Assembly: GCF_001660705.2 (NCBI RefSeq)
Contig: NZ_LYBV02000013.1
Location: forward strand, 62,001 to 126,000
Origin: Saccharicrinis aurantiacus
GTDB lineage: Bacteria > Bacteroidota > Bacteroidia > Bacteroidales > Marinilabiliaceae
Reading direction: 5' to 3'
DNA length: 64,000 bases
In this document: positions 22,840-45,863 of the stretch, one piece after another
Numbering within the stretch: the stretch's first letter is position 1
Layout: every line of letters starts with the position of its first letter
Program-made: the position numbers and the translations under genes
Notes under the pieces: generated by a model
Told to the model about the DNA's origin: nothing
Seen by the model: only the letters and a program-made list of their open reading frames with translations
The model's database searches: none

Positions 22840-22914
22840 GGGCGATTAGCTCAGTTGGTTCAGAGCACTTGGTTTACACCCAAGGGGTCGGGGGTTCGAC
22901 TCCCTCATCGCCCA
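22840..22914 (+). tRNA. tRNA-Val(UAC), copy 1
   Basis: A 75-nt cloverleaf. The acceptor arm GGGCGAT pairs with ATCGCCC, the anticodon stem CTTGG/CCAAG encloses loop TTTACAC (anticodon TAC), and the T loop is TTCGACT. The discriminator is A; the CCA end is not encoded. Confidence 0.97.
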
Positions 22915-22945
22915 CATTTTTAAAAGCATTGAAGAATACGTTTTC

Positions 22946-23020
22946 GGGCGATTAGCTCAGTTGGTTCAGAGCACTTGGTTTACACCCAAGGGGTCGGGGG
23001 TTCGACTCCCTCATCGCCCA
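22946..23020 (+). tRNA. tRNA-Val(UAC), copy 2
   Basis: Identical in sequence to copy 1, 31 bp downstream. Same anticodon TAC, no encoded CCA. Confidence 0.97.
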
Positions 23021-23053
23021 CATCTTTTAAAAGAATTAAACGATTACGTATTC

Positions 23054-23128
23054 GGGCGATTAGCTCAGTTGGTTCAGAGCACTTGGTTTACACCCAAGGG
23101 GTCGGGGGTTCGACTCCCTCATCGCCCA
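23054..23128 (+). tRNA. tRNA-Val(UAC), copy 3
   Basis: Identical to copy 1, after a 33-bp spacer that resembles the next spacer (both contain TTAAACGATTACG). Confidence 0.97.
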
Positions 23129-23160
23129 CAATCTTTAAAAGATTAAACGATTACGCATTA

Positions 23161-23235
23161 GGGCGATTAGCTCAGTTGGTTCAGAGCACTTGGTTTACAC
23201 CCAAGGGGTCGGGGGTTCGACTCCCTCATCGCCCA
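23161..23235 (+). tRNA. tRNA-Val(UAC), copy 4
   Basis: Identical to copy 1; the last of the array, directly followed by a terminator. Confidence 0.97.
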
Positions 23236-23238
23236 CAG

Positions 23239-35155: not shown

Positions 35156-35464
35156 ATGCAAGCAATTTTAGTAGAACATATCACCGATTTAAAGAAGCTA
35201 TGTAAGACTTTTAAGATTAAAAGGCTGCATGCTTTTGGTTCTGTTGTAGAAGGAAACTTTACACAGGATAGTGATATTGATTTATTGATTGCATTTTCCG
35301 ATGAATTATCGATAGAAGAGTATGCTGATAATTACTTTGCACTTCATTATAAATTAAAAGACCTCTTAAAAAGAGAAATAGATTTGGTAACAGAACGTAC
35401 CTTATCAAATCCGTATTTTATAGAAAGTATTAACGAAACGAAAGAGTTAATATATGAAGCGTGA
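35156..35464 (+). CDS. mntA: MntA-type nucleotidyltransferase antitoxin
   Basis: A minimal nucleotidyltransferase, the antitoxin of HepT/MntA modules; characterised members add AMP units to the HepT toxin. In 102 residues it shows the exact GSx10DxD motif: Gly28-Ser29 and Asp40, Asp42 in GSVVEGNFTQDSDIDLL. It overlaps the hepT gene by 11 bp, the usual arrangement. The pair follows a REP-like element and separates cobQ from mutS, so it looks like an accessory insertion. Function is inferred from motif and gene pairing. Confidence 0.88.
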   Translation: MQAILVEHITDLKKLCKTFKIKRLHAFGSVVEGNFTQDSDIDLLIAFSDELSIEEYADNYFALHYKLKDLLKREIDLVTERTLSNPYFIESINETKELIYEA

Positions 35465-35789
35465 GGTAAAGAAGTATCTATACGATATTAAAGTTTCAAT
35501 AGATTCTATCTTTGATTATCTAGGTGATAAACGTGATTTCTTTGAGTATCAAAACAACAAGCTATTACGAAGGGCTGTTGAAAGAGAGATAGAAATTATA
35601 GGGGAAGCAATGAATCGCATATTAAAAATTGCACCTGATGTTAACATAGAGAATGCAAGACAAATTGTAGATACTCGAAATTGGGTAATTCATGGTTACG
35701 ATAAAGTAGATGATGTGGTTATATGGGGGATCATATCCAAGCATCTTCCTAAGCTTATTATTGAAGTTGAGAAGCTGCTCGAGCAATAA
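35454..35789 (+). CDS. hepT: HepT-like (DUF86) ribonuclease toxin
   Basis: A HEPN-fold RNase toxin. In 111 residues it carries the RX4HXY motif as Arg75, His80 and Tyr82 (TRNWVIHGYDKVDD); the tyrosine is the site modified by MntA in characterised systems. N-terminal helices (KKYLYDIKVSIDSIFDYLG) fit the all-alpha HEPN fold. The motif appears intact, so an active module is likely. It overlaps mntA by 11 bp and lies 58 bp before mutS. Confidence 0.88.
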   Translation: MKREVKKYLYDIKVSIDSIFDYLGDKRDFFEYQNNKLLRRAVEREIEIIGEAMNRILKIAPDVNIENARQIVDTRNWVIHGYDKVDDVVIWGIISKHLPKLIIEVEKLLEQ

Positions 35790-38646: not shown

Positions 38647-38722
<76 letters not shown>

Positions 38723-38728
38723 AAGGAT

Positions 38729-38815
38729 GCTCGAGTGGTGGAATTGGTAGACACGCAAGACTTAAAATCTTGTGTCCATTAGGACGTGCGGGTTCAAGTC
38801 CCGCCTCGAGTACCA
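38729..38815 (+). tRNA. tRNA-Leu(UAA), copy 1
   Basis: An 87-nt class II tRNA with a long variable arm and encoded CCA. The anticodon stem CAAGA/TCTTG encloses CTTAAAA (anticodon TAA). The first acceptor pair is G-T. Confidence 0.96.
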
Positions 38816-39006: not shown

Positions 39007-39093
39007 GCTCGAGTGGTGGAATTGGTAGACACGCAAGACTTAAAATCTTGTGTCCATTAGGACGTGCGGGTTCAAGTCCCGCCTCGAGTACCA
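39007..39093 (+). tRNA. tRNA-Leu(UAA), copy 2
   Basis: Identical to the copy at 38729, anticodon TAA, encoded CCA. Its 3' 23 bases plus the following terminator are repeated at 39511-39574. Confidence 0.96.
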
Positions 39094-39134
39094 AGTAAAG
39101 GTCTCTTCTTTGTTGAAGAGACCTTTTTTTATGC
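39071..39134 (+). repeat. 64-bp direct repeat, left copy (3' end of tRNA-Leu plus terminator)
   Basis: Starts at TTCAAGTCCC inside the T arm of tRNA-Leu copy 2 and ends at ATGC after the terminator. Matches 39511-39574 with one mismatch, in the hairpin loop. The pair brackets the GIY-YIG gene like duplicated attachment sites. Confidence 0.92.
39097..39130 (+). terminator. Rho-independent terminator after tRNA-Leu copy 2
   Basis: AAAGGTCTCTTC (39097-39108) pairs with GAAGAGACCTTT (39115-39126), then more T. Repeated at 39537-39570. Confidence 0.9.
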
Positions 39135-39236
39135 CCTTTATTTTGGATTATACTTGGAGGTAAGAGGGGATCACGCACAATATTTGGGTCTGATCCTTTA
39201 TTTGGTTAATTTCAGTTCTCCTTAAACTGATTCCTT

Positions 39237-39509
39237 ATGCACACAGTCTACGCTATTGCCAGTAATGCAAGAAACTATATTTATGTTGGTATGACTTCGA
39301 ATTTATCCAATAGGTTAGAACGTCATAATCAAGGTTACGAGCGAACGACTAAGCCTTATGCACCTTTTACTTTAATATATTCAGAAGAAGTTGGATCGCG
39401 CCCAGAAGCAAGAGTTCGTGAGAAGTATTGGAAATCGGGTGTAGGAAAAGAAAAGTTGAGGTTAATTAGGAATGAATTAGATATTGCGGGCCTGTCTGCC
39501 GACAGGTAG
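39237..39509 (+). CDS. Stand-alone GIY-YIG nuclease domain protein
   Basis: A 90-residue protein consisting only of a GIY-YIG endonuclease domain. TVYAIASNARNYIYVGMTSN carries the two signature half-motifs (VYAI and YVG), SNLSNRLERHN supplies the catalytic Arg, and RPEARVREKYWKSG the catalytic Glu helix. UvrC-like/YhbQ-type single-domain members are common in Bacteroidota, often in many copies, with unknown roles. The last codons run into a small hairpin (39491-39506, arms CCTGTC/GACAGG), and the stop lies one base before a duplicated tRNA-Leu 3' end. A selfish or homing-like gene inserted beside a tRNA is a reasonable reading. Confidence 0.85.
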   Translation: MHTVYAIASNARNYIYVGMTSNLSNRLERHNQGYERTTKPYAPFTLIYSEEVGSRPEARVREKYWKSGVGKEKLRLIRNELDIAGLSADR

Positions 39510-39510
39510 A

Positions 39511-39574
39511 TTCAAGTCCCGCCTCGAGTACCAAGTAAAGGTCTCTTCTTAGTTGAAGAGACCTTTTTTTATGC
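39511..39574 (+). repeat. 64-bp direct repeat, right copy (tRNA-Leu 3' fragment plus terminator)
   Basis: The bases 39511-39533 equal the T-arm, acceptor and CCA end of tRNA-Leu, without the 5' part of the gene, so this is a tRNA remnant. The rest copies the terminator. 63 of 64 positions equal the left copy. Confidence 0.92.
39537..39570 (+). terminator. Rho-independent terminator after the GIY-YIG gene
   Basis: Same stem as at 39097 (AAAGGTCTCTTC/GAAGAGACCTTT), loop TTAGTT, then T. As part of the duplicated block it would now end the nuclease transcript. Confidence 0.85.
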
Positions 39575-45734: not shown

Positions 45735-45863
45735 GTCGTTCCTCGCGAAGACGTGATATTGTATGTGCGTTGTAATTTTTAAGCGCTCGTGCGCGAATCC
45801 CTTCGCGTTCGAATTATTCAAATTAAGCGCCTCGTCATTCCGAGGTACGAAGGAATCTCAAGG
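45721..45863. repeat. REP-like inverted repeat, second element
   Basis: Left arm 45721-45755 (CGCCTTGAGATCGC and on to AGACG) and right arm 45831-45863 (CTCGTCATTCCGAGG to ATCTCAAGGC) are inverted copies related to the element at 34981-35090. A smaller palindromic patch (GCGCTCGTGCGCG, CCTTCGCG) lies in the loop. Confidence 0.7.

Follow-up and report, generated by a model that had tools for sequence, protein, structure and literature searches.

A single-domain GIY-YIG nuclease gene between an intact tRNA-Leu gene and a palindrome-scarred partial copy: a putative tRNA-specific selfish gene of the Bacteroidales

How does a free-standing nuclease gene of 90 codons come to lie between an intact tRNA gene and a second, partial copy of the 3' part of the same tRNA? 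The question is raised by a locus within a 64,000-nt stretch of the Saccharicrinis aurantiacus genome (contig NZ_LYBV02000013.1, positions 62,001 to 126,000; hereafter, the window, to whose numbering the coordinates below refer). All features of the locus are on the forward (+) strand. The first of two tandem tRNA units, the tRNA-Gly(GCC)/tRNA-Leu(UAA) pair (38647..38815; ARAGORN, repeats D1/D2), has a different terminator behind it, and the intact tRNA-Leu(UAA) gene that follows (39007..39093; ARAGORN) is presumably both the host of the element and its target. According to the repeat comparison, the 3' part of this gene, from the T-loop through the acceptor end and CCA to the terminator (hairpin 39097-39126), is copy 1 of a 64-bp repeat (39071..39134), and copy 2 (39511..39574) comprises a tRNA-Leu 3' remnant with the duplicated terminator (hairpin 39537-39566). 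The description given in the initial annotation holds throughout: the copies of the tRNA-Leu 3' end and terminator differ by one mismatch (63/64 identical; 94% when stretched to 72 nt), the 376-bp gap between them contains a 90-residue single-domain GIY-YIG gene (39237..39509) whose stop codon ends one base before copy 2, and the element carries no integrase, given that no other ORF of 60 aa or more is contained entirely between the repeats and that none of integrase size was found there. Elsewhere in the window, ARAGORN identifies four tandem tRNA-Val(UAC) genes (22840-23236), and two small overlapping ORFs located before mutS (35156-35789) presumably represent, as recognised by eye, a nucleotidyltransferase/HEPN-type pair.

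Features that go beyond the initial annotation include a 20-nt palindrome in the T-loop of copy 2 and the mirrored loci described below, in which a tRNA 5' part precedes the gene. The T-arm of copy 2 consists of GCGGG (39486..39490), read from the sequence as a leftover of the 5' strand of the tRNA-Leu T-stem, and TTCAAGTCCCGC, and is interrupted in the T-loop by the 20-nt palindromic scar CCTGTCTGCCGACAGGTAGA (39491..39510). Because GCGGG and the palindromic insert directly precede copy 2, the latter is the 3' part of a tRNA-Leu gene with a loop-split T-arm. The final residues of the GIY-YIG ORF and its stop codon are translated out of the scar. The palindrome CCTGTCTGCCGACAGG is found at a single place in the window (expected mean 0.01, with up to 2 mismatches) and at just 2 places genome-wide with at most 1 mismatch, so that we reject the possibility of one abundant palindrome of this genome. 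Terminator 1 is separated from the gene by a spacer (39135..39236) with a segment (39168-39192) that weakly resembles the tRNA-Leu trailer of a congener, G003 (local score 30, best of 50 shuffles 26); this spacer may be the native trailer, in which case the insertion point would be located behind the spacer and not in the T-loop.

The window protein matches PF01541 with E=9.3e-16 (58.3 bits, curated cut-off 22.6), and Y5, Y16, G18, R26, H30 and E62, in columns that we take to be catalytic in the GIY-YIG domain, are unchanged across 16 sequences. Its AlphaFold model (mean pLDDT 90.7) has the predicted GIY-YIG fold, with residues 1-80 well modelled and the last ten residues of low confidence (mean pLDDT 55), in agreement with the end of the gene being read from the scar. 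The top Foldseek ranks are 1zg2, Slx1, I-TevI and UvrC domains, with a best E of just 2.2e-3, and the best profile and fold matches overall are UPF0213/small GIY-YIG proteins (PDB 1zg2, 1ywl) and Slx1. Amino-acid changes in the GIY genes are held down: in five close pairs, dN (0.01-0.12) is lower than dS (0.10-1.41), selection not being judgeable for the close pair L022/L028 because it shows zero synonymous change, and in five distant pairs dN/dS is saturated. A tblastn search with the window protein matched 11 of 50,697 phage records, all with E of at least 4e-4, and four loci in viral contigs resemble the window gene (30-67% identical over parts); given that these matches are weak, we reject a phage origin of the gene.

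The initial annotation proposed that empty sites be sought in relatives, and these are observed. Twelve relatives were asked for MutS, yielding ten orthologous loci (L146-L155), six of which are informative in that the sequence on the mutS strand extends far enough beyond the tRNA (G007, G004, G006 and G003 from the genus, G013 and G009 from the family); L147 and L148 stop at or just past the tRNA, and L152 and L155 have no such tRNA on that strand by motif. The tRNA-Leu site is empty in all six informative relatives, which contain one to three whole Gly-Leu units and a terminator-like hairpin recognised by eye; at these six loci, neither a GIY match at E<=0.001 nor a half T-arm was found, only whole T-arms. 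Furthermore, among nine purM-side loci, a tRNA-Met was seen in two: in G006, it is followed by two tandem units of gene and partial tRNA, and in G003, the sole informative tRNA-Met comparison, the same tRNA-Met and its terminator are present without any such unit. Thus, as expected of a homing gene, the nuclease gene is present where relatives have an empty site. Two plasmid loci were also compared: among the matches listed, those for L308 are one-sided and L307 has no clean two-sided empty site.

Similar arrangements are widespread in the order. The search with the window protein produced 29 matches in 15 of 61 genomes, its own genome counted, and at 23 of these 29 loci, which were found by likeness to the window gene, ARAGORN identifies a tRNA or tRNA-like gene, in many cases directly upstream and on the same strand. 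Additional loci come from a search of 295 genomes of the order, among the matches listed: L036-L065 were taken automatically, and 60 extra stretches were chosen by hand in list order, with contig ends and long UvrC-like frames mostly passed over. The 150 raw entries were reduced to 122 distinct ones (identical rows removed), then to 119 (frames above 200 aa removed), 116 of which passed the length filter for the tree. At the 119 small GIY places, among the matches listed, the 100-nt bin immediately upstream of the gene contains 38 same-strand T-arm motifs and the one immediately downstream 21; the same-strand counts drop to 2-8 per 100-nt bin at 100-600 nt upstream and to 0-2 farther away, and neither of the two adjacent bins contains a motif on the opposite strand. 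When the interval is widened to 350 nt before and 250 nt after the gene, 51 of the 119, again among the matches listed, are accompanied by a same-strand T-arm. The control for this tRNA link is internal (distance and strand), a separate gene-family control having been used for the REP link only.

GIY genes accompanied by partial tRNA copies beside tRNA genes recur in many families of the order, which supports the statement in the initial annotation that other Bacteroidota GIY-YIG frames run into tRNA-derived sequence. Two layouts are observed, namely, intact tRNA, gene and tRNA 3' part with terminator, as in the window, and the mirror image, in which a tRNA leader with the 5' part is followed by the gene and the intact tRNA. 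The intact tRNA is usually retained, and palindromic scars are frequent in the partial copy. In several genomes, units of ~350-500 bp are arranged in tandem; for example, L323 (764-2986) contains 5.6 tandem copies of a 395-bp unit consisting of a GIY gene and a partial tRNA-Val-like sequence, with an orphan tRNA 3' half at the head.

The phylogeny of the nucleases was compared with the identity of the adjacent tRNAs. The tree (116 domains, 71 alignment columns) was built with a quick method that leaves many forks open, and its labels were assigned by regular expressions and a hand list (15 tRNA loci, 5 gene loci). The 62 rows of tRNA-located genes account for 2 label changes on this tree, the shuffled mean being 38.6. 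The tRNA-targeting class suggested by the initial annotation is upheld in part: many loci are at tRNAs, but 54 of the 116 rows lie elsewhere, most of them in their own clades at palindromic repeats or inside a gene. In particular, all 35 REP-labelled rows belong to one 47-row group (REP 35, other 12), and a third clade of six rows (L012, L033, L035, L084, L100, L108; 98% SH-aLRT) includes 5 labelled gene and 1 other. In L012, L033, L035, L084 and L100, the gene is located between inverted repeats such as TTTACCCTGTGTAATA, and in several loci of this clade the flanking frame reads like what we take to be a GxxExxY-type gene with the GIY gene inside. For the comparison with tRNA identity, 46 tRNA rows were used, with 8 near-copies and the rows without a named tRNA taken out and L022 relabelled Arg from its partial copy. 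The target anticodon requires 24 changes (500 shuffles: minimum 29, mean 34.5) and the target amino acid 19 (500 shuffles: minimum 27), whereas host family shows no signal on these 46 rows (35 changes, a value as low in 273 of 500 shuffles). Nuclease lineage goes with tRNA identity, not with host family, a pattern that is predicted by a mobile target-specific gene and not by a host gene.

The palindromes add a further regularity. Among the matches listed, a hairpin that is absent from the intact tRNA is present in 29 of 44 partial-copy rows (28 of 43 without the second L027 row, which sets two partial copies against each other), with tandem copies counted as separate rows and 10 weakly aligned rows left out; no such hairpin was detected in 39 equally long windows 700-1000 nt away. 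The approximate places are the anticodon arm (20), the T-arm (7), the D-arm (6) and the variable region (2). By the rule used, 15 of the 44 rows have no new hairpin, and the window row is among these because its aligned part begins after the scar. Within the Arg and Leu groups, the palindromes occur at the same loop. In the tRNA-Arg group, they are in the D-loop (L009, L028, L076, L110, L116); in the tRNA-Leu group, three of the four members, the window, L008 and L125, which represent three host families, have a T-loop palindrome, CCTGTCT[G/A]CCGACAGGTAGA, with one-base variation. This shared palindrome is located at the same T-loop point in all three and is followed in each by its own tRNA 3' sequence; in L125, ARAGORN names no tRNA, so that the Leu identity rests on the tree. 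Where visible, the position of the palindrome follows the nuclease lineage.

On the observed anatomy, empty sites, recurrence, tandem arrays, partial-copy palindromes and match of lineage to tRNA, our preferred and, on balance, probable interpretation is that the window contains a target-specific, free-standing, homing-type selfish GIY-YIG gene lodged in tRNA-Leu, which spreads by cutting a tRNA loop and being copied in. These observations suggest a very small self-spreading DNA element of ~400 bases with one gene. By analogy with SegB, the nearest working model, we favour spread by homing, in which the tRNA loop that is cut would differ from lineage to lineage. Under such a scheme, the nuclease would be expressed through read-through of the tRNA terminator and would cut the tRNA gene in the loop characteristic of its lineage, here presumably the T-loop, and repair would then copy in the unit of nuclease gene and partial tRNA. 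With the intact tRNA and terminator kept, the host would pay little. A palindrome at the site of the lineage in the partial copy would remove that site from the remnant, which might be protective; the intact tRNA would remain a target, and this would explain the tandem arrays of gene and partial tRNA and allow selfish spread of the unit. Several points count against homing. A simple T-loop nuclease should still cut the intact tRNA beside its gene; L011, L016 and L323 have an orphan 3' half with no intact tRNA; and in L019, L020 and L090, the partial tRNA and terminator are followed by the truncated start (~12-17 codons) of another GIY copy.

The strongest alternative, which we consider quite possible but somewhat doubtful, is that the GIY-YIG gene encodes an autonomous enzyme of palindromic DNA that would act on hairpins or cruciforms (REPs, tRNA stem-loops) and move palindromes with or without its own gene, tRNA loci being one target class. 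RAYT transposases are thought to move GTAG REPs in a comparable fashion. Apart from the inclusion of Slx1, a nuclease of branched DNA, among the nearest solved folds, the case for such an enzyme comes from the REP-located sister group of 47 rows. The S. aurantiacus genome contains another small GIY gene, L001, which is flanked by CGTC-type repeats, unlike the window gene, which is of the tRNA type. With up to 3 mismatches allowed, the CGTC-type repeat has 27 copies in this genome and its reversed control none. One of these, CGTCATTCCGAGGCACGAAGGAATCT, is at 45833-45858 of the window, with 1 mismatch. A scan with eight L001-type proteins yielded 80 named loci from many phyla, 56 of which have CGTC-tagged hairpins, under a rule defined for this analysis, within 300 nt of the GIY gene. 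Per 100 nt, 0.57-0.63 hairpins occur next to the gene, compared with 0-0.03 at distances above 600 nt. In the same genomes, a CGTC hairpin was found at 1 of 26 cold-shock genes, all but one (L187) of the control genomes having been picked for a REP at the GIY locus (33 genomes asked, 32 searched, 26 with the gene; 4 of 30 loci were clipped and dropped). About 37-38 loci are two-sided, and in 26 of 37 the two REPs are inverted relative to each other with their CGTC tags pointing outward, the remainder comprising 7 with the opposite inversion, 4 with both on the minus strand and 0 with both on the plus strand.

Such a unit is present in Azospirillum lipoferum 4B (L312 1858-2474), where REPIN, GIY gene and REPIN occupy a 617-nt gap between sufB and sufC; in three relatives, A. 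ramasamyi, A. oryzae and strain B510, the gap is 87-129 nt and lacks the REPIN-GIY block. Moreover, in the set of 295 genomes and among the matches listed, CTTCGACTYCGCTCAG is present in 22 of the 29 genomes that carry a TTCGAC-clade GIY gene, in 17 of the 155 that have no more than one GIY match and in 41 of the 112 others, and CCTGCCTGCCGGCAGGCAGG is present in 29 genomes, 28 of which have at least two GIY matches, compared with 112 of the other 266, the genome lists for both counts having been compiled by eye. In Neisseria gonorrhoeae (L238), a GIY gene is flanked by CGTCATTCCCGC..GCGGGAATC hairpins. In the accessible text of one study, CGTC REPs are described as apparently having no dedicated transposase, and the Neisseria CGTC-1 repeats are equated with dRS3 (Di Nocera et al., 2013, PMC3733652). 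Judging from sequence context, the REP-located small GIY genes are candidate enzymes for the CGTC REPs.

Against a general enzyme of palindromes, it can be argued that the REPs may be passive landing sites, that CGTC hairpins are missing from both 300-nt flanks at about 24-25 of the 80 loci, that 17 of the 155 genomes in which the GIY search yielded one match or none (among the matches listed) carry the REP as well, that the tRNA copies at tRNA loci are direct and not inverted, and that target duplication, excision and insertion of new REPs are hypothetical. A wider proposal appears to us plausible, if short of probable: the single-domain GIY-YIG proteins would be the missing enzymes of CGTC REPs and other bacterial palindromes, forming autonomous units of ~450 bp (inverted REP, nuclease, inverted REP), of which the scattered REP dimers in many phyla would be deletion derivatives, and the tRNA-lodged genes would be lineages that target the stem-loops of one tRNA and mark the partial copies with REP-like hairpins.

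It is unlikely that the GIY gene serves the host, for example through an RNase or DNase that takes part in phage defence or in the quality control of tRNAs, with its place beside the tRNA serving regulation and the partial copy acting as a decoy or regulatory RNA. The co-orientation of gene and tRNA would fit such a role, as would the short distance, in many loci, from the terminator to the gene start and the low dN in the five close pairs, but presence is patchy (the 15 of 61 genomes), the lineages adjoin different tRNAs with no host signal, and there are tandem arrays and REP-located sister genes. That the locus is what remains of an integrative element with a tRNA attachment site, after loss of the integrase, is hardly credible: integrative elements typically duplicate the tRNA 3' end, as seen here, but the GIY ORF is the only one of 60 aa or more between the repeats, tandem ~350-500 bp units and mirrored 5' duplications occur, the nuclease tracks the tRNA, and we reject an integrase-type island given that no integrase-sized ORF lies between the repeats. 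Simple tandem tRNA duplication with later drift of the GIY gene into the locus, which the initial annotation had named as a possible refutation and which the tandemly doubled Gly-Leu pairs here and in G004 and G007 might suggest, can be dismissed with equal confidence on the empty sites, since G004 and G007 hold whole copies only and no GIY gene at this locus, so that the duplication does not explain the partial copy, and since gene and partial copy recur at many different tRNAs, often with palindromes.

If the homing interpretation is correct, bacterial chromosomes would harbour selfish elements of just ~350-500 bp, each lineage bound to one tRNA gene, and the nucleases would constitute a natural set of small enzymes with differing built-in targets. 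It would also account for frames whose C-terminal residues, like those of the window gene, are encoded by tRNA or repeat sequence. The sister clade offers a concrete, testable candidate enzyme for the CGTC REPs, a gap noted in print in 2013 (PMC3733652); a causal REP link would make the REP side of the system a new kind of element.

The initial annotation also considered the class undescribed, and this is only partly so, given that free-standing GIY-YIG homing genes are already known and tRNA-linked ones are not wholly undescribed. In open-access text, among the top matches, no paper was found that combines "GIY-YIG" with "repetitive extragenic palindromic", none was found that joins GIY-YIG, Bacteroidetes, tRNA gene and homing endonuclease, and none, among the matches listed, that states either the tRNA or the REP link of GIY-YIG. 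A study of polymorphic toxins mentions, in its accessible text, GIY-YIG, Bacteroidetes, tRNA, intergenic and insertion (PMC3482391); a term search of PMC12306157 returned 0 mentions of GIY.

The closest known system is SegB, a free-standing GIY-YIG homing endonuclease of T-even phages. The accessible text of the SegB report (PMC13096335) places its gene beside tRNA genes and describes cutting inside tRNA genes, with the motif RAWTSGAAC at 23 of 83 sites and no preference for particular isotypes, as well as tandem amplification of tRNA and nuclease gene. RAWTSGAAC would, in our own reading, be the reverse complement of a T-loop. The two systems thus share a GIY-YIG gene beside tRNAs and tandem arrays, tRNA-gene cutting being reported for SegB. 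By that description, the window type is set apart as a single domain of ~90 aa in bacterial chromosomes, not phage-borne, with lineages tied to one tRNA, palindrome-scarred partial tRNAs and a REP-located sister clade. As to the closest folds, PDB entries 1zg2 and 1ywl of UPF0213 are titled hypothetical proteins, and Slx1, unlike the window protein, is a eukaryotic structure-specific nuclease with a partner, Slx4. Integrative elements with tyrosine recombinases that target tRNA genes duplicate the tRNA 3' end and keep one intact tRNA; the loci described here differ in having no integrase-sized ORF, a size of ~350-500 bp, palindromic scars and mirrored 5' duplications. Finally, the REP-located genes resemble REPtrons, in which a small mobility-type gene (RAYT, TnpA-REP) is bracketed by REPs, and the REP dimers found at other places in the genome, which may be non-autonomous copies, resemble REPINs, as these are presented in the accessible text of PMC3733652; RAYT is an HUH tyrosine transposase associated with GTAG REPs, whereas the window protein is a GIY-YIG enzyme and its REP-located relatives accompany CGTC REPs.
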